42,680 nucleotides of DNA, taken from a virus. Shown here one piece after another: positions 4,005 through 42,680 of the stretch. Both the position numbers and the translations under genes were made by a program. Numbering within the stretch: position 1 is the stretch's first letter; the number at the start of each line of letters is the position of its first letter. The stretch is taken from positions 1-42,680 of IMG/VR virus record IMGVR_UViG_3300005340_000021; one strand, 5' to 3'. The notes under the pieces were generated by a model that made no database searches, had not been told where the DNA came from, and saw nothing but the letters and a program-made list of their open reading frames with translations.

Positions 4005-4576
4005 CGTCGGCTCCGCAGCAGGACGTCGACGTCCCACTCGCGCGGCGCGTTCTCCTGTGCCCCAGCCATGCGGGCGCTTGACAGTTTACCGGAGAGTTTA
4101 GCGATGGCGCCCTCGACGCGGGTGCTGTTCTGGGTGAGCGGCAGGCCAAGCTCGACGGCGATGTCGAAGGCGATGCTGTCGACCAGCAGCGGGTCCATCT
4201 TGGTCGCGTCCTGCAGGTCGTAGACGTACAGGCAATTCAGCGAGCCGGTGGTGTTGGTGTAGATGTAGCCGTCCATCACGTCCCAGATGTCGAGGTCCTG
4301 TTCGTTCGACTCGCGGTAGAAGCGGATGAAGTCGGCAGGCAATGGATAGCGGCTCTGCCAGTCGAACAGCGGTCCCACGGTGGCGGCGGCAATCTGGGCC
4401 TGCTTCTTGGCGCAGTTCCACGAATGGGCGCGCAAGGTCGATCGCCTGATCTGGTCGTAGCGCGCGTTGCACAGGATGGCGCGCTTGGTGTTGTCGGCAA
4501 GGCTCGTGATCGGGTCCTCGCCCAACGCGATCAGCGCGATGTTGCAGATCGAGGTTGGACTGTCGCCCGCGGCCAT
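4001..4576 (-). CDS. Tail tubular protein A (T7 gp11-like adaptor)
   Basis: The 191-residue protein matches the adaptor/gatekeeper family that joins the portal to the tail nozzle. Typical features are the N-terminal Cys-Asn-Ile-Ala-Leu-Ile-Ala-Leu-Gly-Glu, then Arg-Tyr-Asp-Gln-Ile-Arg-Arg and His-Ser-Trp-Asn-Cys-Ala-Lys (about residues 37-57), and Pro-Leu-Pro-Ala-Asp-Phe-Ile-Arg near 78. The length is close to T7 gp11 (about 196). It starts just after a hairpin terminator, with CGGAG six bases before the ATG, so it may be read from a promoter or by readthrough past that hairpin. Confidence 0.9.
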   Translation of the reverse strand: MAAGDSPTSICNIALIALGEDPITSLADNTKRAILCNARYDQIRRSTLRAHSWNCAKKQAQIAAATVGPLFDWQSRYPLPADFIRFYRESNEQDLDIWDVMDGYIYTNTTGSLNCLYVYDLQDATKMDPLLVDSIAFDIAVELGLPLTQNSTRVEGAIAKLSGKLSSARMAGAQENAPREWDVDVLLRSRR

Positions 4577-4585
4577 GTCGTTCTC

Positions 4586-4620
4586 CGAAAAGTGGCCGCC
4601 CCGGTGGGTCCGAGGCGGCC
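4586..4620 (-). terminator. Hairpin terminator downstream of the capsid gene pair
   Basis: On the minus strand GGCCGCCTCGG, a 5-base loop and CCGGGGCGGCC form an 11-bp GC-rich stem (4594-4620) with one T-G pair. It is followed by ACTTTTC. The T-run is short, so termination is probably partial. It sits between the capsid/decoration genes and the tail tubular genes, the same place as the T7 late terminator after gene 10. Confidence 0.7.
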
Positions 4621-4641
4621 TAGGTCCCCTCTAACGCAAAG

Positions 4642-5112
4642 CTACGCGCCGTAGTCGATGTACTTCGTCACGAACACCAGCGTGCCCGAGGAGGGCAGGT
4701 CCGACACCGCCACGGTGACGAGAACGTCCTCGTAATTGGTGTTGCTGACGCCCAGGTAGTCGTAGCAGGTCGTGAGGTTCACGCCCTTGGTCGCCACGTT
4801 GATCAGGTTGGTGCTGGCGTTGGTCCCGGTCAGCGTCCCGGCCGCGGCGAAGCGGCTGGCGTTGATCAGGTCGCCGACAGCGATGGTCGATGCCGAGAGC
4901 GACGTATCCGTGGAGACGTCGAAACTGAGCGGCACCGCGCCGTAGGGGAGACGGGCGATCATGATCTGATCGTCCACGGCCTGACTGGCGAGCGTGATGC
5001 GCTCCGTCCAGGTCCGTTCCTTGCCGCCGACCACCATGGTCGGAAGCGACTGCACATTGCCACCCGTGTTGTTCACGAGGAGGCTGCAGTTGGGAGCGAA
5101 AGTCGTTGCCAT
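4642..5112 (-). CDS. Probable head decoration or minor capsid protein
   Basis: The 156-residue protein directly follows the major capsid gene (6-bp gap) and ends just before the terminator. It is Thr/Ser/Val-rich with predicted beta structure, few charged residues, and no membrane segment or signal peptide. Small beta proteins in this position are often capsid decoration or cement proteins, made in amounts similar to the capsid protein. GGAG lies about nine bases before the ATG. No specific family motif is visible, so the function is inferred from position and composition. Confidence 0.65.
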   Translation of the reverse strand: MATTFAPNCSLLVNNTGGNVQSLPTMVVGGKERTWTERITLASQAVDDQIMIARLPYGAVPLSFDVSTDTSLSASTIAVGDLINASRFAAAGTLTGTNASTNLINVATKGVNLTTCYDYLGVSNTNYEDVLVTVAVSDLPSSGTLVFVTKYIDYGA

Positions 5113-16642: not shown

Positions 16643-16687
16643 ATGACTGACAGCCAGCATACACCCTCCCTCGGGAGGCATCCATGA
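16643..16687 (+). CDS. 14-residue leader ORF overlapping the hldD start
   Basis: The ORF encodes Met-Thr-Asp-Ser-Gln-His-Thr-Pro-Ser-Leu-Gly-Arg-His-Pro and stops at TGA 16685-16687, which overlaps the hldD ATG (ATGA). AGGAG lies about eight bases before its own ATG. It may be a coupling leader for hldD. It could also be chance, since hldD has its own GGGAGG. Confidence 0.4.
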   Translation: MTDSQHTPSLGRHP

Positions 16688-17538
16688 TCCTTGTTACGGG
16701 ACACAACGGTTTCATCGGGAGCCACCTGTGGCGGGCGCTGGAGTATCAGCACGTCGACATTGAGGTGATCGGCATGGACCCGCGCGGGATGGGCTTCAAG
16801 CCCGACGAGGTGCCCGACATCATACGGCTGTACGGCAATGATCTGGAAGCGGTGTTCCACCTCGGCGCGATCAGCGATACGACGTGCGATGATGAAGACG
16901 CGCTGTTCAACACGAACAACTACCTGCCGATGCAGTTAGCGCAGTTCTGCAATATGCGGAATATCCCGCTTATCTACGCCAGCAGCGCCAGCGTGTATGG
17001 CAATGGTCAAGGCCCGCTCAATGCCTACGCCAGATCGAAGGCGACGTTCGATGCATGGCGCGAGAATGTGAGGCTGCCGAACGCAGCACCTTGGTACGGC
17101 CTCCGCTTCTTCAACGTCTACGGTCCCGGCGAGGCGCACAAGGGGAAGCAGGCGTCGATGGTGCATCAGTTGATCGAGCAGGCGCGTGACACTGGCTGGT
17201 GCAATATCTTCGAAGGCGACGCCTTCGATAAATTCCTTGCTCGCGATTTCGTCCATGTCGACGACGTGGTGAGCGTCATGCTGTGGTTGTGGAAGAATCG
17301 GCCAGCAAGCGGCATCTACGACGTGGGCACTGGCGTTTCCCGGTCCTTCGAAAGCATTCACATTGCCCTGTGCGAGCAGGGCAAAAAGCACCTTGGCCTG
17401 CGCTATATCCCCTTCCCCGACTCCCTCAATGGCAAGTACCAGTTCCGCACGCAGGCGGACCTGTCGAAGCTCAGGGCGGCGGGGTACGACAAGCCGTTCC
17501 TGTCGCTCGAGGAAGGAATTGAAAGGATGCTCAAATGA
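16684..17538 (+). CDS. hldD: ADP-L-glycero-D-manno-heptose 6-epimerase-like protein
   Basis: The 284-residue cytoplasmic enzyme belongs to the extended short-chain dehydrogenase family. It has the NAD(P)-binding Gly-His-Asn-Gly-Phe-Ile-Gly (6-12), Ser-Ser-Ala-Ser-Val-Tyr-Gly (100-106) and the catalytic Tyr115-x-x-x-Lys119. The C-terminal half follows bacterial HldD closely: Phe-Asn-Val-Tyr-Gly-Pro, His-Lys-Gly (152-154), Phe-Glu-Gly, Arg-Asp-Phe-Val-His-Val, Gly-Thr-Gly, and Leu-Arg-Ala-Ala-Gly-Tyr-Asp-Lys-Pro. HldD inverts C6 of ADP-D,D-heptose to give the L,D form used in the LPS inner core. The protein is slightly short (E. coli about 310) and lacks part of the region after residue 38. It lies on the plus strand inside a minus-strand late region, as a moron-type gene. 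GGGAGG precedes the ATG. Confidence 0.85.
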   Translation: MILVTGHNGFIGSHLWRALEYQHVDIEVIGMDPRGMGFKPDEVPDIIRLYGNDLEAVFHLGAISDTTCDDEDALFNTNNYLPMQLAQFCNMRNIPLIYASSASVYGNGQGPLNAYARSKATFDAWRENVRLPNAAPWYGLRFFNVYGPGEAHKGKQASMVHQLIEQARDTGWCNIFEGDAFDKFLARDFVHVDDVVSVMLWLWKNRPASGIYDVGTGVSRSFESIHIALCEQGKKHLGLRYIPFPDSLNGKYQFRTQADLSKLRAAGYDKPFLSLEEGIERMLK

Positions 17539-17810
17539 TCGACACTTGCGGCGGCGTTTATATAGCCTGGGGTCTTACCGCGGGCTTCTTTCTGGTTTCC
17601 CTTTCTCTGGCGCTATACGCCCATTTCAGAAGCAGGCGTTTCCTGCGGAGCGTGCTTTCTGTCGGCATGCGCGGCGCTGATGGCGCTCCGGGGCGCGATG
17701 GAGGCGGGGGCGGCGGCGGCGGGGGTTACGGAGGCCGAGGGGGCGATGGCGGGTCCGTCGTCTGCAAGGCTCCAGTCGTCACCTATGGAGCGGGTCGGCG
17801 TCCCAGCTAG
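17535..17810 (+). CDS. Membrane protein with glycine-rich, collagen-like tail
   Basis: The 91-residue protein has one membrane segment (about 8-30), a basic stretch (His-Phe-Arg-Ser-Arg-Arg) just after it, then Gly-Ala-Asp-Gly-Ala-Pro-Gly-Arg-Asp-Gly and nine consecutive glycines, ending in more Gly repeats. The ATG overlaps the hldD stop (ATGA), with AGGA upstream, so the two are coupled. Its 3' end overlaps the 3' end of terL by 32 bases on the other strand. It may act at the host inner membrane, for example with LPS synthesis or as an exclusion protein. The function is unknown. Confidence 0.6.
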   Translation: MIDTCGGVYIAWGLTAGFFLVSLSLALYAHFRSRRFLRSVLSVGMRGADGAPGRDGGGGGGGGGYGGRGGDGGSVVCKAPVVTYGAGRRPS

Positions 17811-19302
17811 AACGATCCTCGCCCATGCGGCGGGCGGCGAGCAGGGACTGGCTGGTGTAGCCCTTGCGCTCCATGATTTCGACGTCGGCGCCATCGGTGA
17901 GGCAGGCGTATTCCAGGGCCTCGCAGATGTCGGCATAGTTGTTCTTCTCGACGTCCTCGGCGAACCTGTCCGCGCCGCCCACGTTCAGCTTCTTGAAACG
18001 GAAGCCGGAGTTGAGGCCGGTGATGATGAGCTTGCAATGTGGGCTGACGATGAGGGCGGGGTCGCCGTCGATCAGGGTGGTCAGCGGCTTCTTGAGCGCC
18101 TCGCGGCGGACGTCGATCGAGTTGGTGGGGGCGGCTTCGACCTTGAGGCCGGTGCGGTTGGAGAAGATTTCCAGCCACGACTTCGACTCGTCGTCCTGCA
18201 TGTCCTTGCCGTACTGGGCCGAGGGGTCGACGACGCATTTGATCGAGTCGGGTTTCACGAACGGATAGCGATCGTGCAGCATCTGGGCCACGAGATCGCC
18301 GAAGCGGCGGGGTCCCATGTTCTGGTCGCCCTGCAGTTCGTCGACGACGCGGCGCTGGCCGCCGGGGTTGCGTTGCAGGAAGGCGGCCGAGGGGAAGGTC
18401 CGGGGATCGACGCCGATGACGAGGGGCAGGCCATGGATGGGCAGCATGTCTGCCTTGGCGACATGGATGTGGTTCTTGAACTCGGGCACCACGGGCTTTC
18501 CGGCACGGGAGTAGCCCGGCCTGTTCTTGATCATGCGCTCGACGTAGAACTCGGGCTGTCCCTTGGACTGGGCCTCGTAATAATCCGGCGGGAGGTTGAC
18601 CGTGTTCTCGGCGCCGGGCTCGAGGCCGCCCGGCTGGATGAACAGTTCGGTGTCCTCCATCTTCAGTTCGGCCGCGGACTTGGTGAAAATGTCGCGGTAG
18701 AGCCAGCTTTCCAGTTCGGGTGCGTTGCAGTCGGCCAGGATACCGAACCACGAGGGGCCGCCTTCGGACATATCGGGGAAGCGCCCCCAGCGGCCCTTGG
18801 CGTAGGTGAAGACGTCGCGGCTCAAGAGATCCAGCTCGTTCAGGTACCATGCGGTGGGCTCGAAGCCGCGCATGAAGTCTTCCACGGAATTGTCGCCGAT
18901 CGCTGCGAACTCGGCGGTGAAGTCGACGACGGAGCCGTCCGCGATCAGGAAGTGGAGGCGGTGGCGGCAGGGGGCATCCATGGCGCCGGTCCATTCTCCG
19001 GCGTTGGGCGGGAAGCGCTTGTGCCACGAGGGGATGGTGGTCTTATGCAACTGTCTGTAGGTGTCGCGCACGATGGCGAGCTTGAACTTGCGGACGGGGC
19101 GCTCGCCGTCACCGATATTGATCGTGCGTCCCTTGGAAATGCGCTGGGCACAGGCGAGGCGGACGGCTTTTATGAAGGCGGTGGTGGTCTTTCCCCCGCC
19201 CACGGGTCCGTTGATGATCTGGACCTTGGCCATGGACCGCATGAAGGCTTCGCTGACCGGGCCGGGTGGCGCCCAGTTGATGTCCATGCGGGCTTCGCTC
19301 AT
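17779..19302 (-). CDS. Terminase large subunit
   Basis: The 507-residue motor protein packages DNA into the procapsid. It has a Walker A loop Gly-Pro-Val-Gly-Gly-Gly-Lys-Thr-Thr (32-40), a Walker B-like Tyr-Leu-Asn-Glu-Leu-Asp (153-158, with Glu156 as the likely catalytic residue) and a coupling-like Ala-Asp-Cys-Asn region near 190-193. It also has the RNase H-like nuclease motifs Val-Ile-Gly-Val-Asp (Asp299) and Cys-Val-Val-Asp (Asp359), and a C-terminal Asn-Tyr-Ala-Asp-Ile-Cys-Glu-Ala-Leu-Glu-Tyr typical of the last nuclease motif. The ATG overlaps the stop of the 52-residue gene upstream. The 3' end runs into a convergent plus-strand gene. Confidence 0.93.
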   Translation of the reverse strand: MSEARMDINWAPPGPVSEAFMRSMAKVQIINGPVGGGKTTTAFIKAVRLACAQRISKGRTINIGDGERPVRKFKLAIVRDTYRQLHKTTIPSWHKRFPPNAGEWTGAMDAPCRHRLHFLIADGSVVDFTAEFAAIGDNSVEDFMRGFEPTAWYLNELDLLSRDVFTYAKGRWGRFPDMSEGGPSWFGILADCNAPELESWLYRDIFTKSAAELKMEDTELFIQPGGLEPGAENTVNLPPDYYEAQSKGQPEFYVERMIKNRPGYSRAGKPVVPEFKNHIHVAKADMLPIHGLPLVIGVDPRTFPSAAFLQRNPGGQRRVVDELQGDQNMGPRRFGDLVAQMLHDRYPFVKPDSIKCVVDPSAQYGKDMQDDESKSWLEIFSNRTGLKVEAAPTNSIDVRREALKKPLTTLIDGDPALIVSPHCKLIITGLNSGFRFKKLNVGGADRFAEDVEKNNYADICEALEYACLTDGADVEIMERKGYTSQSLLAARRMGEDRSSWDADPLHR

Positions 19303-19457
19303 TTGGCCGGGACCGCCTTCACGAGGGGCTGGGCGAGCTTTTCCTGAACTTCGACCAGGGTGGTGGAGGCTCGGGCGATGGCCTCGAGGTGGGGCTGCAT
19401 GTTCTCGATCGCCTTGGCGAGGCGGGTCAGCGCGTCGATGTCACGATCCGAGAGCAT
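19299..19457 (-). CDS. Short helical protein upstream of terL
   Basis: The 52-residue protein is all-helical (Asp-Ile-Asp-Ala-Leu-Thr-Arg-Leu-Ala-Lys-Ala-Ile-Glu and later heptad-like Leu/Val) and ends in a basic tail. It overlaps the end of the GT9 gene by 17 bases and its stop overlaps the terL ATG. Small terminase genes are often found here, but at 52 residues with no DNA-binding domain it can at most be a cofactor. The protein at 22311-22805 is a better small-terminase candidate. Confidence 0.55.
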   Translation of the reverse strand: MLSDRDIDALTRLAKAIENMQPHLEAIARASTTLVEVQEKLAQPLVKAVPAK

Positions 19458-20646
19458 TCTCCACCTCCGCAACGATGTCGTCGACGGGCCAGATGCCCGG
19501 TTCCTTCTGGCGCACGATCCTTGCCTCCTCATACCACACCGAGCGGTCGGAGGTGCCCCATTGCCACGAGCCTGCATGATGGCAGACCACGACCACCGGT
19601 TTCCCCATGGCGCCCGCGAGATGGGCGGGGGCGGTGTCGACGCTGACCAGCACGTCCATCTGGTCGATGAAGGAGGCCAAGTCGGCGAAGTCGAAGATGC
19701 GGGGGCCGAGGTCGGTCACGAGATGCTGGGCGCCGATGTCGGCGATGTCGGTGACACCGGGCTGGAGGCCGAAGAGGGCGACGCCGGGCAGGCGGGTCAG
19801 CTCGAGGAGCTTCTCCAGCGGGATCGACTTCTGCGCCCCGTGCAGGCGTTCGTCCACCGTCATGTGTTCGGCCTGGGTCTTGGCCTTCCACACGAGGCCC
19901 ACCTTGGCCTTCGCCCCCGGAGGGCTTGGCAGGGTGAGCTTGTGGGTGGGCACGATATAGGGCGCCGCGGCGACGTCGGTGAGGCCAAGGCGGTGGGGGA
20001 TGGACATGATGGGGAGGCGGTAGTCGGCGGGCCAGTCTTCCCCCATCTGCTCGCAGCCCATGAGGCGGACGAGGGGCGGCTGGACGGCGATGCGGGCCTC
20101 GCGGAAATGGCGCAGGAAGCGGGCGAACATGATGGTGTCGCCGAGGCCCTGCTCGCCATGGATGAGGAGGGTCTTGTCCGTCAGATCCTCGCCTTTCCAG
20201 AGCGGGATGCTCATGCGATAATCCTTGCGGTCTAGGCGGACCTCGTACTCGAAGAAGGCTTCTGGCCAGCGGCCAAGCTGGAGAAGGCAGGCGGCCTTGG
20301 CAAAGCGCCAGTCTACATTGGTGGGGTCGGTTTCGAGGGCGATGCGAATCCACTCCAGCGCGCCTTCGGGACCGAGGCTGTCCATCCACCAGCAGCCGAT
20401 ATTGAAGATCGCGGGGGCGTGGCGGTGATCCAGCGACAGGGCGATCTCAAGCTCCTGCCGAGCCTCTTTCATCCTCCCATCCCGACGCAGCATATTGCCG
20501 TAGTTGCTCCGCAGGTCCGCCCGGTCAGGCGCCATATCCACCGCGCGGCGGCAGGCAGCAACAGCCGAGGCGGTATAGCCCCGCCTAGCAAGGTCGACCG
20601 CTATATCGTTCCACATACCTGCGGGATCGAAGGCGGGGGCGTTCAT
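19441..20646 (-). CDS. TPR protein with glycosyltransferase family 9 domain
   Basis: The 401-residue protein has tetratricopeptide repeats in about residues 12-140 and a GT9 (heptosyltransferase-type) domain after it. GT9-type marks are Gly-Glu-Gln-Gly-Leu-Gly-Asp-Thr-Ile-Met-Phe (164-174), Val-Gly-Leu-Val-Trp (249-253), and Ser-Val-Asp-Thr-Ala-Pro-Ala-His-Leu-Ala-Gly-Ala-Met-Gly-Lys-Pro-Val (335-351), in which Asp337 and His342 belong to the sugar-nucleotide site. Such TPR-GT9 proteins transfer sugars in bacterial cell-surface or protein glycosylation. With hldD close by, an LPS-modifying role is a reasonable guess. The ATG follows the upstream TAG with no gap. GT9 proteins are unusual in phages. 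Confidence 0.82.
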   Translation of the reverse strand: MNAPAFDPAGMWNDIAVDLARRGYTASAVAACRRAVDMAPDRADLRSNYGNMLRRDGRMKEARQELEIALSLDHRHAPAIFNIGCWWMDSLGPEGALEWIRIALETDPTNVDWRFAKAACLLQLGRWPEAFFEYEVRLDRKDYRMSIPLWKGEDLTDKTLLIHGEQGLGDTIMFARFLRHFREARIAVQPPLVRLMGCEQMGEDWPADYRLPIMSIPHRLGLTDVAAAPYIVPTHKLTLPSPPGAKAKVGLVWKAKTQAEHMTVDERLHGAQKSIPLEKLLELTRLPGVALFGLQPGVTDIADIGAQHLVTDLGPRIFDFADLASFIDQMDVLVSVDTAPAHLAGAMGKPVVVVCHHAGSWQWGTSDRSVWYEEARIVRQKEPGIWPVDDIVAEVENALGS

Positions 20647-20922: not shown

Positions 20923-21034
20923 GGGGCGGGTCCTTCCGGGTCCACGATCCGTCGTACGCCCACGAGCAAAGGATGGCTCCGGCAAGGCAACCCTGAAAGA
21001 ACCAGAACACCAGATCAATCCAAGTGAGGGTCAT
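20912..21034 (-). CDS. Small single-span membrane protein
   Basis: The protein has 40 residues, with one hydrophobic segment at about 5-25 (Trp-Ile-Asp-Leu-Val-Phe-Trp-Phe-Phe ... Ala-Gly-Ala-Ile-Leu) and a charged C-terminus. AAAGGAG lies upstream of the ATG at 21034. A longer in-frame start at 21094 lacks such a site. Its function is unknown. Confidence 0.55.
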   Translation of the reverse strand: MTLTWIDLVFWFFQGCLAGAILCSWAYDGSWTRKDPPHDR

Positions 21035-21068
21035 GCGCGGCTCCTTTGTGGCGTTCGTCAGATGGCCG

Positions 21069-21497
21069 TTACGCGCCACTAAAACCACGCCCATTGATGT
21101 ACCAGTCTAGGGGAAAAGGCTTGTCGTGCCTGGACGGCAACACCCTAAGGGACACATCCGTTGGCCCGAAAGGCCGCGCTTGTGAGAAGTCGAAAAGACA
21201 CGAAACCAGATCGATGCAAACCTTCGCGTCCTCCATAGCGTCCCGGTCCCAGACGAGGCCGCGTCTGGGATAGAAGTCGCGCCTAGACAGGACCGCTTTG
21301 CCGAACTCGTTGAAGACCGGGGACCCATCCGGCCACACCACGTTCCGATCTCCCCTGAAGATGGCCAGCAGGGCGTCGGTCGGATCACCCTCCGGCGAGC
21401 CGTGATGCAATACAAACGGTGGGGTGAGTGCGACCAGTGCAGGCAGTATCACCGCGCTGGCGGTCCCGATGATGAAGCTGCGGCGTGATAGGTTCAT
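21069..21497 (-). CDS. Exported protein with twin-arginine (Tat) signal
   Basis: The 142-residue protein begins Met-Asn-Leu-Ser-Arg-Arg-Ser-Phe-Ile-Ile-Gly, a twin-arginine motif, followed by a hydrophobic stretch to about residue 27. It should therefore be exported folded through the host Tat system. The mature part is Asp/Arg-rich with several Trp and Pro and is of unknown function. AAAGGA lies about nine bases before the ATG; a TTG at 21506 is too close to that site. It sits directly downstream of the repeat element at 21505-21561. A Tat substrate in a phage is uncommon. Confidence 0.65.
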   Translation of the reverse strand: MNLSRRSFIIGTASAVILPALVALTPPFVLHHGSPEGDPTDALLAIFRGDRNVVWPDGSPVFNEFGKAVLSRRDFYPRRGLVWDRDAMEDAKVCIDLVSCLFDFSQARPFGPTDVSLRVLPSRHDKPFPLDWYINGRGFSGA

Positions 21498-21504
21498 GTG
21501 CGGC

Positions 21505-21561
21505 AATCCTTTCAGAACTTGAGTTGGCTTAGGTACGCGACCCGATAGGCACTTCTAATCC
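21505..21561 (-). repeat. Copy B of a ~50-bp repeated leader element
   Basis: On the minus strand it reads GGATTAG..GTGCCTATCGGGTCGCG, then GCCAACTCAAGT, CTG and AAAGGA, just before the Tat-protein start. Copy A at 28511-28567 has the same order and nearly the same bases before another gene, and copy C at 26160-26184 has the first 25 bases in the opposite orientation. It could be a promoter, a protein-binding site or an RNA leader. Confidence 0.75.
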
Positions 21562-21586
21562 TCCTTTGGGGGAGCGGGGAGGAACC

Positions 21587-21832
21587 TCACTTCAAAGCCT
21601 CCCCCAAAAGGACACGGATCGTCTCAGACCGGCTCTTCAGCTTCCGACGGTGCCACTCCTCGTCAATCCGCGGCAGCAAGTCCTTGAGATGGATCAGCAC
21701 ATTCCCCGCGTGAGCCTCACGCGCAATAACCGCGTCTCGGTGCGTGCGCGCAAATACCGGCTGCGGGACCTTCGGCGCCGGTGGTTTCTCGGAGGGCCGC
21801 AGAGGGTCCTCGCCGGGGGGGAGTTTGATCAT
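21587..21832 (-). CDS. Ribbon-helix-helix regulator
   Basis: The 81-residue protein has a Pro-rich N-terminal part and a C-terminal ribbon-helix-helix region. The hallmark is Leu-Leu-Pro-Arg-Ile-Asp-Glu-Glu-Trp followed by Ser-Arg-Ser-Glu-Thr-Ile-Arg-Val-Leu-Leu (about 68-77), as in Arc/CopG-type DNA-binding proteins. There is no ribosome binding site before the ATG. A TTGACC/CATACT promoter places the expected transcript start on the ATG itself, so a leaderless message is likely. Three palindromes spaced 18 bp overlap this promoter, so autorepression is likely. It may be an early-gene or lysis/maintenance switch. Confidence 0.75.
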   Translation of the reverse strand: MIKLPPGEDPLRPSEKPPAPKVPQPVFARTHRDAVIAREAHAGNVLIHLKDLLPRIDEEWHRRKLKSRSETIRVLLGEALK

Positions 21833-21880
21833 ACGGGGAGTATGGGGGATACGCGCTGTATGGTCAATACGGGCGATATA
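21830..21880 (-). promoter_or_regulatory. Promoter with three phased palindromic operators
   Basis: The minus strand has -35 TTGACC (21867-21862), 17 bp, and -10 CATACT (21844-21839), with the ATG A seven bases further on. Overlaying it are CATAC-GGGGA-GTATG (21830-21844), ATAC-GCGCT-GTAT (21849-21861) and ATAC-GGGCG-ATAT (21867-21879), all with 5-base centres and exactly 18 bp apart. RHH proteins such as Arc and Omega bind tandem sites of this kind. Confidence 0.75.
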
Positions 21881-22186
21881 AGAAGTCCGGGGATTTGAGA
21901 ATTACACGGACCAAGTGGCAGAGAGGGCGCGCGTCGCCGCAAAACCGGGGTACCCCCTCGCGATCCGTCGGCCTATTAGGCATTTGTCATAATGGCTATT
22001 ATGCGCGGCAGAGCGATTACGTGTGCGTTATCAATGGCTTATGGTTATTGCACTCTGTAACAATCGCTCTATCTGCTCCTGGCTACCACGTATGGTGTGG
22101 GTGTGCGTGCGCTGCTATCACAGCATCGTGTGGTGAGTGGGCGCTCACTCGGGGGACAGGCTGTGCCACCGCGAGCAGAACACCCT
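21881..22186. other. Non-coding region with AT-rich palindromes
   Basis: No convincing gene lies here. There is a GGGGTACCCC palindrome near 21944-21953 and a perfect inverted repeat CATAAT-GGCT-ATTATG at 21988-22003. A comparatively AT-rich stretch (21979-22080) includes GTTATCAATGG and TTATTGCACTCTGTAACAAT. It may hold operators, a replication origin or promoters; none is proved by the sequence. Confidence 0.5.
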
Positions 22187-22372
22187 TCATGCGCTCCCAG
22201 TTCCCTTGATTGGCTTGTCATGTATGGGTGCTGGTTTGCCTGTCATCCTGGCCCAGTGACAGTTGTGGCAATGGCATGTGGTCCATATGGACTGTGGCTG
22301 CGCGCGTTGCTCAAGGCGTCTCAGCGCTTCCAGTTCCTGCAGCATCGGCTCGAGGTTGGCCATCTGCGTCAT
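22187..22372 (-). CDS. Possible small Cys/His-rich protein
   Basis: The 61-residue ORF has a helical N-terminus and Cys-His-Cys-His-Asn-Cys-His (about 33-39), which could bind zinc. It overlaps the end of the upstream 164-residue gene by 62 bases in another frame, and AGGAG is almost adjacent to the ATG. Codon use cannot settle whether it is expressed. It could be a real overlapping gene or chance. Confidence 0.4.
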   Translation of the reverse strand: MTQMANLEPMLQELEALRRLEQRAQPQSIWTTCHCHNCHWARMTGKPAPIHDKPIKGTGSA

Positions 22373-22805
22373 GCTCCTGTGCGATATGGTCGATGACCTG
22401 GGCTTCTATGGCTTGTTCTGCTGTGTTGCTGATGTCGACGAGTTCCTTGTATTGGCGCTCGTCTACGATGTTGAGGTGTATTGCGCGGGTATGGCGCATG
22501 TCCACCTGGACGGGGAGCTTTTGGGCGACGTAGGGCAATACTGTCTGTGCTGCCAGGCGCCTTTCTCCTAGGGCCTCTGTGAGTGTGCAGCCTAGTTGCT
22601 CGGCAAGGGCTTGTGTCTCTGTGCTGGCGATCTCGAGCAATACTGCGCGCGGGTCGCGGAATGTCTGGAGGAGCTGGCTTACCGTGTAGATCTGGAACTT
22701 TGATGGCTGGCCCTGGCTTGCCTTTACGATGGTTGCGGGCACGCGGTCGATGGCTCGCTTCATCGCTCGATCGGGCCGCAGCTTGTGGGTCTGAGGGGGC
22801 AACAC
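22311..22805 (-). CDS. Candidate small terminase subunit
   Basis: The 164-residue protein starts at GTG 22805 (an alternative ATG lies at 22763). The central pattern Phe-Arg-Asp-Pro-Arg-Ala-Val-Leu-Leu-Glu-Ile-Ala-Ser, then Glu-Ala-Leu-Gly-Glu-Arg-Arg-Leu-Ala-Ala-Gln-Thr-Val-Leu-Pro-Tyr-Val-Ala-Gln-Lys-Leu, resembles phage small terminase proteins, in which an Ala-Ala...Pro-Tyr-x-x-x-Lys-Leu motif ends the helical core. The C-terminus is acidic and Ala/Gly-rich. It is 3 kb from terL in the same direction. I infer TerS; a DNA-binding regulator is the other option. A TTGCCG/TACAAT promoter lies upstream. Confidence 0.5.
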   Translation of the reverse strand: MLPPQTHKLRPDRAMKRAIDRVPATIVKASQGQPSKFQIYTVSQLLQTFRDPRAVLLEIASTETQALAEQLGCTLTEALGERRLAAQTVLPYVAQKLPVQVDMRHTRAIHLNIVDERQYKELVDISNTAEQAIEAQVIDHIAQEHDADGQPRADAAGTGSAETP

Positions 22806-22829
22806 CTAACCTATTGGTTTAGCGTCGAT

Positions 22830-22859
22830 ATTGTAGCCTGCGACCTGTTGGTGCGGCAA
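22830..22859 (-). promoter_or_regulatory. Leftward promoter of the candidate terS gene
   Basis: The minus strand has TTGCCG (22859-22854), an 18-bp spacer and TACAAT (22835-22830), about 25 bases before the GTG at 22805. This is one arm of a divergent control region. Confidence 0.5.
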
Positions 22860-22877
22860 GTGTGCGCCATCAATCCA

Positions 22878-22883
22878 TATAAT
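22878..22883 (+). promoter_or_regulatory. Rightward -10 box (TATAAT)
   Basis: A perfect TATAAT lies 95 bases before the first rightward gene of the 22978-24558 group. The -35 region at the right distance (GGCAAG) is poor, so an activator or a non-canonical promoter is possible. Confidence 0.4.
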
Positions 22884-22977
22884 GCAAGCCCGCGTGCGTT
22901 TTAGGTGCGACATCCTGCCACATTCCGCTTTCTATCTCTCTCCCCTACCTTATGGGCGTCAACACAGGAGGAAGATC

Positions 22978-23127
22978 ATGGAACAGCTTTTTAAGGCCAT
23001 CTGGCTCGAATACCTCTTTCTGACCGACATGGTGGGAGAGGATATGCGGCGCGTCATGAGCCGGTCAGTCCGCGCACGATGGGTCCGCGACTGTAAGCGG
23101 AGCGGCTATCTGCATCCAAGCGTCTGA
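22978..23127 (+). CDS. Small protein, first gene of the rightward cluster
   Basis: The 49-residue protein is helical, with an aromatic N-terminus (Leu-Phe-Lys-Ala-Ile-Trp-Leu-Glu-Tyr-Leu-Phe) and a basic C-terminal half (Arg-Arg-Val-Met-Ser-Arg-Ser-Val-Arg-Ala-Arg-Trp). AGGAGGAAG lies before the ATG, inside the phrase AACACAGGAG that recurs before other genes here. The function is unknown; such early proteins often target host enzymes. Confidence 0.6.
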   Translation: MEQLFKAIWLEYLFLTDMVGEDMRRVMSRSVRARWVRDCKRSGYLHPSV

Positions 23128-23135
23128 CTCTCTGA

Positions 23136-23229
23136 GAAGGGGTGCGCTGCGTCCCTTCGATTGAGTGCCAGGAATAGCGCAACCGGCAGCGCTTTATGAG
23201 CCGGACCAATCACAAACAGGAGTCGAGCA
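23136..23229 (+). promoter_or_regulatory. Intergenic hairpin plus TGAGTGCCAG leader (first copy)
   Basis: GAAGGG (23136-23141) and CCCTTC (23153-23158) can form a stem. ATTGAGTGCCAG follows, then a second stem CCGGC...GCCGG and an ACAAACAGGAG ribosome site. The next intergenic region (23463-23529) has the same order of parts. No T-run follows the stems, so these are more likely RNA leaders or processing sites than terminators. Confidence 0.5.
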
Positions 23230-23454
23230 ATGCAGATCAGATTTAACCGCGATTACATTTGGCGCCCCGAAGGGGATAGCAGCCATGCCGACAAGATGGG
23301 CGCCAAGGTGCGGCCGGTGCGCCGCCTCACGGTGAAGAAAACCCCGGACGGGCCGGGCGAAACTGACGCAGAAGTCGGCCCCATGTTTGAAATCGTGGTG
23401 TACGCCACCGGAAAGCGCTTCCACGCATTTGCCGACGAACTCCACCCCGCCTGA
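23230..23454 (+). CDS. Small protein of unknown function
   Basis: The 74-residue basic protein looks beta-rich (Val-Arg-Pro-Val-Arg-Arg-Leu-Thr-Val-Lys-Lys and Met-Phe-Glu-Ile-Val-Val-Tyr-Ala). CAGGAG lies nine bases before the ATG. It stands alone between two structured leaders, so each gene of this group may be regulated separately. No family is recognised. Confidence 0.6.
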   Translation: MQIRFNRDYIWRPEGDSSHADKMGAKVRPVRRLTVKKTPDGPGETDAEVGPMFEIVVYATGKRFHAFADELHPA

Positions 23455-40108: not shown

Positions 40109-42680
40109 GGCTCGTTCCCGATCACGCGCAGCGGGGCCTGCCGGACATTGATGCCGGGGGAATTGCCGCGCGCATTGAGTTGGCGGATGTCGATGATCCA
40201 CGGCATCCCGTTGGGGCCGGGGATGTCGAACATCGCACCCTTGTTGTCGCCGGGAATCTGGACCTTGTAGAGCCCGTCGCCCACCGTGATCAGGCGGCTC
40301 TCGGTCTTGACCATATCCGCCGTCAGTTGGCGGCCGAGGCGGTCCTTGAACGCTGGCACGTCGGCGTCGGTGATGTTGGCGATGCCGTTGCGGAAGCCGC
40401 GCTCGTTGATCCCGGTGGGCAGCAGCACGTCGCCACGCGCACCATTGAGCCGCTGTCCGTAGACCGCCGTGATCGCCTTCTTCATCGTGGCGTCATCGTA
40501 GACCGACATGTCTCCCTTGCCGAACTTCATGGAGACGTAGAGCGAGACGGCGGCGTCATCCATCATGGCGAGGGTCTGCGGGTCCTGATTGAAGCCGCGC
40601 CTGCTGTCCCCCAGCGCATTGTCGAACGTGGCGCGCACGTCGGTCGCACTCGGGGACACCATGTTCTTCGCTTCCGGCCCGGCCGCCTTCCGCATGTTGG
40701 CTCCCTCCAGAATCTTGTCGCCGAGGGCAAAGACGGAGGGGTCCTTGCTCCGGTAATTCCACGCCGCCACGCCCAGCGAGTTGCCGTACATATCGCCCGC
40801 AACCTGCCGGGCAAAGGGACCGATCATGTTTTCGGGCAGCGCCGTGGCGATCTGCGCCATTGTTCCCTGCTGCTGCTGGAGCTTGGCGGCCTCAAGCCCC
40901 TTCTTGATTATCTCCGGCTCGTGACCCGACAGGGGGCCGAACTTCTGGATGGTCGGCTGCAGCATCGCGCCGGAGTAGAACTTCTCCTGCGCCGCCACCG
41001 CCAACTGACCACGATTGGCGAGGGCCGCCTGGAGAAGCGCGGGGTTGGCCAGCACCTTCTCGTTGAGAGGGGCCATCTGGCCGCCGCTGGTATGGACGAA
41101 CCATGCAAGCGGGTCGGACTTGGCGAGCGCCTGATTGGCCTCCGACATCTGGGCAAAGTATTTCTGGAGCGATAGCGCCCGCCTGCCCTGCTCGCCACCG
41201 TCGTTGGTGGCGGTGTCGATGGCGCGCTTGATCTCGTCCATCGCGGTTGGCGACTGCTTGGCATAATCGTGCGCCTCGCCATAGGCAGCAAAATCCTCCT
41301 CCAGCCGCTTGGCCCGCTCCGGCCGGTTGGCCACGTTGAACTGACGGATGGCGTCCTGATAGGTCTTGGCCACGGCGCGAGGGTCGTCTTTCTGGGCCAT
41401 CGCTGCGCGGGCGATCTTCTCGGCTTCCTCGCCTGCGCGAAGGGCCTCGGCCCTCGCCTTCGTAAGCTCGACGAGATTGGCGCGCATGAAGGTGCCTGCC
41501 TCGCCCGGCATCTTGCGTGCCCACTCGATCTGCTGTGCAGGCGAGAGGGACCAAAAGTTCTTGATCTCCTCCTCGTGATTGGCGAAGTCGCGATAGATGG
41601 CGGCCTTGGACCTGTCGCCCGTCGCCTCCATCCTGTCGGCAAGCCCGGTGAAGGTGCCGGGCACATACGCGCCCTGCTTGCTGGAGATGTTGTTGATGTT
41701 GGTGGCGAACTCGTCCTCGATCACCTTGCGTTCGGCCGTCACGGTGGCGGTCTGGGTGGAGAGGATAGCCGACGCCTTCTGCGCCTGGGCCAAGCGGACA
41801 TCGAGGCTACCCGGCCCGTTCGTCACATGGTCCGCAATCCTGGCAAGCGCCCTCGCCTGATATTGGGCATAGCCATCCCCCGTGGCCGGGCTGCCCTGCC
41901 ACGCCTTGACCTGATCCGTCATCCACGAGGGCCAGTTTTGGCCGACGCTGCCTGACTTCTGATCGCCGCCCCATGCGGTGCGACCGGCGTGGGCGGTGTC
42001 GATATGGATGCTGTCCGTCTGTGGGTAGTAGCCGAAGCCCTTGATGTTCGGGTTGGCCAGCGCCGCGGCGATGATCTGCTGCTTCTGGGCATCGGGCATG
42101 CCCGCCAGCGAGATGTCCATGGCCTTGTCGCTATGGAGGTGGGCCGAGTCCTTGGCCCCTCCTGCCGCAGCGTTCTGCTGCGGCGTCCGGTCGGTCGAGG
42201 TGATGCGGCCCTTCAGGTCGGGGAACTGAGCAAGCAGGGGGGCAACCACACCGGAGATGGAGCCGGGGCCATCTCCTATCAGGACGGCCGCGCCGTTGTT
42301 GATTTCGATGCCCTTCTCGGCCGAGGCCACGGCGGTCTTCAGGTGCGCCTCGTCGCTTGCCGACAGGTGCTTGGAATAGGCCTTGTAGGCAGCAACGCCC
42401 GCGGCAGGGTCGCTTGCCATGGCGGCCTTGATGATGCCGCTGTAGACGCTGGACTGGAACTCGATCTTGGCCTTGGCTCCTACCTCCGGGTTCATCCAGC
42501 CGCCAGCAATGCGCCCGTCGATGGCGTCCATGCCGTTCTGGATCAGGAGGTCGCGCCTGCGTGGGTCGCTGGAGTCGGCGGCATCCTTGCCCCACTGGTC
42601 AAGTTGCTCGACGAGCTTGCCGCGCTGGGCTTGGCTCTCCAGTTGGAAGGAAGTGGTCTGCGTCTCGCGCCTGCGGAGGT
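40105..42680 (-). CDS. Internal virion protein with M15 peptidase domain, main part (start at 476 across the join)
   Basis: This segment holds residues about 126-983 of the protein that starts at 476. An M15-type (VanY/DD-carboxypeptidase-like) domain lies at about 265-365. It shows Thr-Asp-Arg-Thr-Pro-Gln-Gln-Asn (288-295), Gly-Gly-Ala, Ser-Ala-His306-Leu-His-Ser-Asp-Lys-Ala-Met-Asp314 and His351-Ile-Asp, with a Trp soon after. His306 (or His308), Asp314 and His351 are the likely zinc ligands; there is one extra residue between the first His and Asp compared with usual M15. The rest is long helices. It probably cuts peptidoglycan cross-links during DNA entry, taking the place of the lysozyme domain of T7 gp16. 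Confidence 0.85.
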   Translation of the reverse strand, partial: LRRRETQTTSFQLESQAQRGKLVEQLDQWGKDAADSSDPRRRDLLIQNGMDAIDGRIAGGWMNPEVGAKAKIEFQSSVYSGIIKAAMASDPAAGVAAYKAYSKHLSASDEAHLKTAVASAEKGIEINNGAAVLIGDGPGSISGVVAPLLAQFPDLKGRITSTDRTPQQNAAAGGAKDSAHLHSDKAMDISLAGMPDAQKQQIIAAALANPNIKGFGYYPQTDSIHIDTAHAGRTAWGGDQKSGSVGQNWPSWMTDQVKAWQGSPATGDGYAQYQARALARIADHVTNGPGSLDVRLAQAQKASAILSTQTATVTAERKVIEDEFATNINNISSKQGAYVPGTFTGLADRMEATGDRSKAAIYRDFANHEEEIKNFWSLSPAQQIEWARKMPGEAGTFMRANLVELTKARAEALRAGEEAEKIARAAMAQKDDPRAVAKTYQDAIRQFNVANRPERAKRLEEDFAAYGEAHDYAKQSPTAMDEIKRAIDTATNDGGEQGRRALSLQKYFAQMSEANQALAKSDPLAWFVHTSGGQMAPLNEKVLANPALLQAALANRGQLAVAAQEKFYSGAMLQPTIQKFGPLSGHEPEIIKKGLEAAKLQQQQGTMAQIATALPENMIGPFARQVAGDMYGNSLGVAAWNYRSKDPSVFALGDKILEGANMRKAAGPEAKNMVSPSATDVRATFDNALGDSRRGFNQDPQTLAMMDDAAVSLYVSMKFGKGDMSVYDDATMKKAITAVYGQRLNGARGDVLLPTGINERGFRNGIANITDADVPAFKDRLGRQLTADMVKTESRLITVGDGLYKVQIPGDNKGAMFDIPGPNGMPWIIDIRQLNARGNSPGINVRQAPLRVIGNEP
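42581..42680. repeat. Right copy of the 100-bp terminal direct repeat
   Basis: It is identical to bases 1-100. Removing one copy gives a circle of 42,580 bp and an intact 983-codon gene. Confidence 0.95.

Follow-up and report, generated by a model that had tools for sequence, protein, structure and literature searches.

A 9-bp half-site array over the predicted leaderless promoter of a phage RHH gene and its probable role in autorepression

Six short half-sites on an exact 9-bp grid cover the predicted leaderless promoter of a small RHH gene in a phage genome. With a probability of about 72%, we regard this array as the operator serving the neighbouring RHH gene, whose product as dimers would coat the promoter and repress their own synthesis. 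The best reading of the gene is that of an accessory autorepressor heading a run of genes that leads into the terminase large subunit gene (terL). The analysis covered a whole IMG/VR virus record of 42,680 bases, hereafter the window, and the features discussed are collected in Table 1.

Table 1. Coordinates of features around the RHH gene (window numbering)
Feature	Position	Strand	Basis or remark
RHH protein (P0001), 81 aa	21587..21832	-	sequence searches and alignment
164-aa gene, upstream of the RHH gene, same strand, conserved	22311..22805	-	terS-like, inferred from position and length
TPR/glycosyltransferase-9 gene, downstream of the RHH gene	19441..20646	-	family match; conserved in L088
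Terminase large subunit, downstream of the RHH gene, codirectional	17779..19302	-	sequence match
Operator-like array, six RTAY half-sites	21831..21879	.	5-bp spacers; 9-bp grid
Palindrome ATACGGGGAGTAT	21831-21843		reported register
Palindrome ATACGCGCTGTAT	21849-21861		reported register
Palindrome ATACGGGCGATAT	21867-21879		one mismatch; reported register
-35-like hexamer TTGACC	21862..21867	-	consensus scan; same hexamer in L088
-10-like hexamer CATACT, 17 bp past -35	21839..21844	-	consensus scan; CATATT in L088, spacing same
ATG start codon	21830..21832	-	about 6-7 bases past -10, at expected transcription start

The genome is probably closed (circularly assembled) at ~42.6 kb, because its first and last 100 bases (1-100 and 42581-42680) are identical terminal repeats. 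Its TerL shares 31% identity with that of Burkholderia phage BcepC6B, and both its portal and its major head protein have matches among phage families. Structural genes run leftward from 22.8 kb via the ends to 34.9 kb and early-type genes occupy about 22.9-34.7 kb, reading rightward, a layout derived partly from open reading frames. The RHH gene occupies a variable slot, with the terS-like gene on one side and terL on the other. In a relative, contig L088 (the same contig as L005), gene order is the same and the terS-like gene is 54% identical.

A preliminary description of this DNA had reported three ATAC-N5-GTAT palindromes, centred at 21837, 21855 and 21873 with an 18-bp step, and all three were recovered. 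They form part of a denser arrangement. Half-sites start at 21831, 21840, 21849, 21858, 21867 and 21876 and read ATAC, GTAT, ATAC, GTAT, ATAC and ATAT on the plus strand, so that equally good GTAT-N5-ATAC palindromes, absent from that description, are centred at 21846 and 21864. As every gap is 5 bp and orientation alternates throughout, the array runs unbroken at a 9-bp period (minus strand, ATAT-CGCCC-GTAT-TGACC-ATAC-AGCGC-GTAT-CCCCC-ATAC-TCCCC-GTAT-G, the final G completing the ATG). All six steps of the grid carry RTAY, compared with at most three in 60 Markov shuffles of the window, and a second statistic, the six-site array score, was 23/24 compared with ≤17 in shuffles. Furthermore, the whole window contains four perfect half-site pairs, all within the array, where 0.16 would be expected; one-mismatch pairs elsewhere occur at chance level, and a half-site pair and grid scan of the window revealed no second copy of the operator. 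The reported weakening of sites with distance from the gene is visible in the original register (five-base arms, four-base arms, one mismatch), but it is slight. An RNA element at this position is disfavoured by folding, which gave weak hairpins in the window (z -2.1) and nothing notable in L088 (z -0.5), and an Rfam search returned nothing above threshold and one chance match below it.

The proposed TTGACC-17-CATACT promoter was recovered on the minus strand (21867-21839) by an independent consensus scan of positions 21000-23300. Its score of 9/12 is that of a moderate promoter, and about one such match is expected by chance in the region; we rate it above chance because it is conserved in L088 as TTGACC-17-CATATT-6-ATG, found by the same scan. 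The A and T of the ATG are the final two bases of the first GTAT half-site. Between the upstream stop codon and this ATG the window holds no alternative in-frame ATG, GTG or TTG, and conservation between the window and L088 proteins begins at the annotated start, with MIKLPxGEDP. The start lacks a Shine-Dalgarno sequence: its anti-SD duplex value of +1.7 kcal/mol is the weakest pairing among 17 genes tested, the 16 others in the window ranging from -5.0 to -9.6. The L088 start has a value of -3.1, about the random mean, and TerL there is likewise without a clear Shine-Dalgarno sequence. A leaderless RHH message, with the start codon at the predicted transcription start in two phages, is thus well supported at the sequence level. 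The earlier proposal of a leaderless promoter with overlapping operators is well supported, with promoter geometry retained in a relative whose RHH protein is 53% identical and no Shine-Dalgarno sequence at the start.

Assignment of the protein as a probable RHH regulator is supported by a match to PHROG 4738, a transcriptional repressor family (E 6e-5); matches to Pfam RHH_1 are sub-threshold (14.2 bits for the window protein against a cut-off of 20.5; two relatives, at 17.3 and 18.6 bits, also fall below it). The protein comprises the conserved N-terminal MIKLPxGEDP, a variable linker and a short, putative C-terminal RHH domain (approximately residues 43-81), the C-terminal half of which is unusually conserved, with EWHRRKLKSRSETIRVLLGEALK identical in the window and L088. 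The sequence NVLIHL..LLPRIDEEWHRRKLKSRSETIRVLLGEAL fits the strand-helix-loop-helix pattern with a helix start rich in S/T. AlphaFold, run on the monomer with four sequences, returned two helices and no strand at low confidence (pLDDT 66; about 78-85 in the C-terminal part), a result that says nothing about an obligate dimer. In AmrZ, the strand residues contacting bases are K18, V20 and R22 (PMC3325190); by inspection, their counterparts are N44, L46 and H48 in the window protein and G, L and Q in L088. Homologues of the RHH protein were not found in cultured phages, the PDB or GTDB genomes, nor homologues of TerL in GTDB genomes. BcepC6B gp01, annotated as a transcriptional repressor, does not resemble the RHH protein on inspection; other phage records gave no match to it. 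In L088 the linker of the RHH gene (4423-4752; L005 2995-3324) is longer and of low complexity, and another frame of it could encode a plausible 56-residue helical protein (MNKDIMFEKDEWQ...), so that an overlapping gene or an insertion is possible there.

Comparison with related phages yielded one independent relative with both the gene and the array. L088 is syntenic with the window (53% identity for the RHH protein and 74% for TerL), and its RTAY words are spaced by 9, 18 and 9 bp on a 9-bp grid that ends at the ATG. It carries four RTAY words, whereas 200 shuffles of the locus put at most three on any six-step grid; its sites are weaker (RTAY at 4/5 positions) and alternate in the opposite phase to the window. 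A MAFFT alignment shifted the promoters against each other by one 9-bp step, and we adopted the register anchored on the ATG because it retains both hexamers and both spacings. Four further relatives (L092, L100, L102 and L103) have a terS-like gene with 56-73% identity across its matched portions and terL-like sequence downstream, with HNH-endonuclease-like or other small genes in the slot and no RHH gene; the array is absent from all four, with at most two RTAY words on any 9-bp grid. In this small set, the array and the RHH gene therefore come and go together (two phages with both, four with neither). A scan of 2.9 million viral contigs for the combined promoter and grid pattern returned the L088 contig only. 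The more distant L086 and L087 carry two other RHH genes between the terS-like gene and terL but no such array; the slot thus seems to favour RHH genes, though not the window-type operator. A scan of viral contigs for ATAC-N5-GTAT-N5-ATAC-N5-GTAT alone returned 78 stretches that do not represent the same system, so the pattern by itself is not diagnostic: many are repeats in coding sequence, a recurring set comes mostly from 17-24-kb records with a GC of about 0.55-0.6, in which no RHH gene was noticed close by, and a few resemble promoter sites of unrelated high-GC phages.

The array lies between the terS-like and terL genes, a frequent location of packaging sites, and a conserved noncoding element (GTACCCCGG...) lies ~65 bp upstream of it. 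Both could indicate that another protein, a host regulator or the terS-like protein acting at a cos/pac array, binds here and that the RHH gene is a mere neighbour. We consider this unlikely: the array is missing from relatives in which the RHH gene is absent while the terS-like gene and GTACCCCGG are present, and the position of the array is fixed relative to the promoter and the ATG. The GTACCCCGG element itself (window 21945-21953, minus strand; L088 4310, L092 1947, L100 1750, L102 2650, L103 4564) lies downstream of the terS-like gene, ahead of GC-rich sequence and CCGTGT, in six phages, with or without the RHH gene, and is a candidate cos or pac site. Another motif, ATCAATGGCTTA / TAAGCCATTGAT (window 22030-22041), occurs in one orientation in the same gap of the window, L088 and L100, and in the opposite orientation, as exact or near matches, in L102, L103 and L092.

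Operation by the RHH protein at its own promoter would proceed as follows. RHH dimers would insert their beta-ribbons at RTAY half-sites every 9 bp, and adjoining dimers would touch and so coat ~50 bp. The coat would occlude the leaderless promoter at its -35, -10 and start site, and with polymerase excluded the protein would hold down its own production and, probably, the output of the codirectional genes behind it. Binding by the RHH protein, cooperativity, repression and the downstream effect are steps that we infer. Short half-sites at regular intervals across the promoter of the gene itself, the arrangement looked for in an RHH autorepressor, are present in the window and conserved in L088. 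A leaderless message and local autorepression are supported by the conserved layout in L088, the co-occurrence of array and gene, and the weak Shine-Dalgarno pairing; the product is probably a repressor that limits itself and is translated from a leaderless message, and its cooperative autorepression is plausible on these sequence features. The effect may extend downstream, since the genes are codirectional as far as terL, the scan of 21000-23300 detected no terminator-like site on the minus strand just downstream of the RHH gene, and the next gene of L088 overlaps the stop codon of its RHH gene.

The protein might instead act as an activator or as an antitoxin with an unrecognised partner, given that antitoxins are common among RHH proteins and that AmrZ activates as well as represses (PMC3325190). 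That is quite unlikely in our view. Sites over the -35, -10 and start should block polymerase, the RHH gene has different neighbours in the window and in L088, and no toxin family was matched by those in the window. A toxin-antitoxin pairing was dropped, no neighbour being recognised as toxin-like.

The preliminary description had further suggested that this could be the main switch of the phage, a suggestion that the analysis does not support. The idea of a phage-wide lysis/lysogeny switch acting at the array has some appeal, as the RHH promoter points at terL and the late genes and leaderless messages are known for phage repressors. Lambda cI from PRM is such a message lying under its own operators, as proposed here; unlike the window protein, however, cI is an HTH protein whose operators also serve a divergent promoter and recur elsewhere, in a true lysogeny switch. 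We judge a switch of this kind very unlikely for the window. The operator is single-copy, searches of the probably closed 42.6-kb genome for tyrosine and serine integrases came up empty, the RHH gene is replaced by other genes in the four close relatives, and the terS-like gene is preceded by another promoter-like site. A temperate-phage immunity switch would be expected to come with an integrase or another lysogeny gene and with several operator-bearing promoters, a profile that the single operator and the lack of a tyrosine or serine integrase do not match. On these grounds, and because the gene is absent from relatives, an accessory local autorepressor is preferred.

The kind of regulation proposed is already known, and none of a new kind is revealed; what is unusual is how evenly the array is spaced and that it overlaps a leaderless start. 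RHH dimers bind cooperatively along short-period repeats at the met boxes of MetJ and the heptads of plasmid omega, which resemble the window array in this respect but have periods of 8 bp and 7 bp and different half-sites. Pseudomonas aeruginosa AmrZ at amrZ1 is likewise a small autorepressing RHH protein, binding two half-sites with a 5-bp linker as a dimer of dimers (PMC3325190, which also quotes linkers for Arc and CopG). Unlike the window, it has GGC half-sites, an A-rich linker, separate amrZ1 and amrZ2 sites and no continuous six-site grid. Escherichia coli RelB at relO is also an RHH autorepressor, with four short subsites in the promoter whose spacing is essential for cooperativity (PMC2812701); in contrast to the window, these are 6-bp subsites in two abutting 12-bp half-sites, of other sequence and spacing, and RelB uses the toxin RelE as co-repressor. 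The operator of the RHH antitoxin MazE6 sits on the -10 TATACT (PMC9477884). A broader proposal is that podoviruses have a small, so far undescribed RHH family whose continuous, alternating 9-bp half-site array serves as a protein-coated operator, stops at the AUG of a leaderless message and so sets the dose of the regulator together with that of the late gene run at its terL end; this is tentative, and we lean against it. If the operator assignment is true, polymerase, ribosome start and repressor would share one 50 bp, and the locus would offer a clean, readily tested RHH operator with many evenly spaced half-sites, whose regular grid would suit measuring the cooperativity of RHH dimers against site number.

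Two further observations concern the neighbourhood. The gene after the RHH gene (window 21069-21497, minus strand) encodes an N-terminal Tat-like signal (NLSRRSFIIGTASAVILPA), and the terS-terL slot of L086 likewise holds a gene with a similar signal. Sugar-related genes lie near terL in the window (16684-17538 and 19441-20646) and in L088 (2-1239 and 5029-6264); both phages encode a GT9-type glycosyltransferase with TPRs and epimerase-like proteins, and L088 a nucleotidyltransferase-like protein, which perhaps serve surface-sugar modification.
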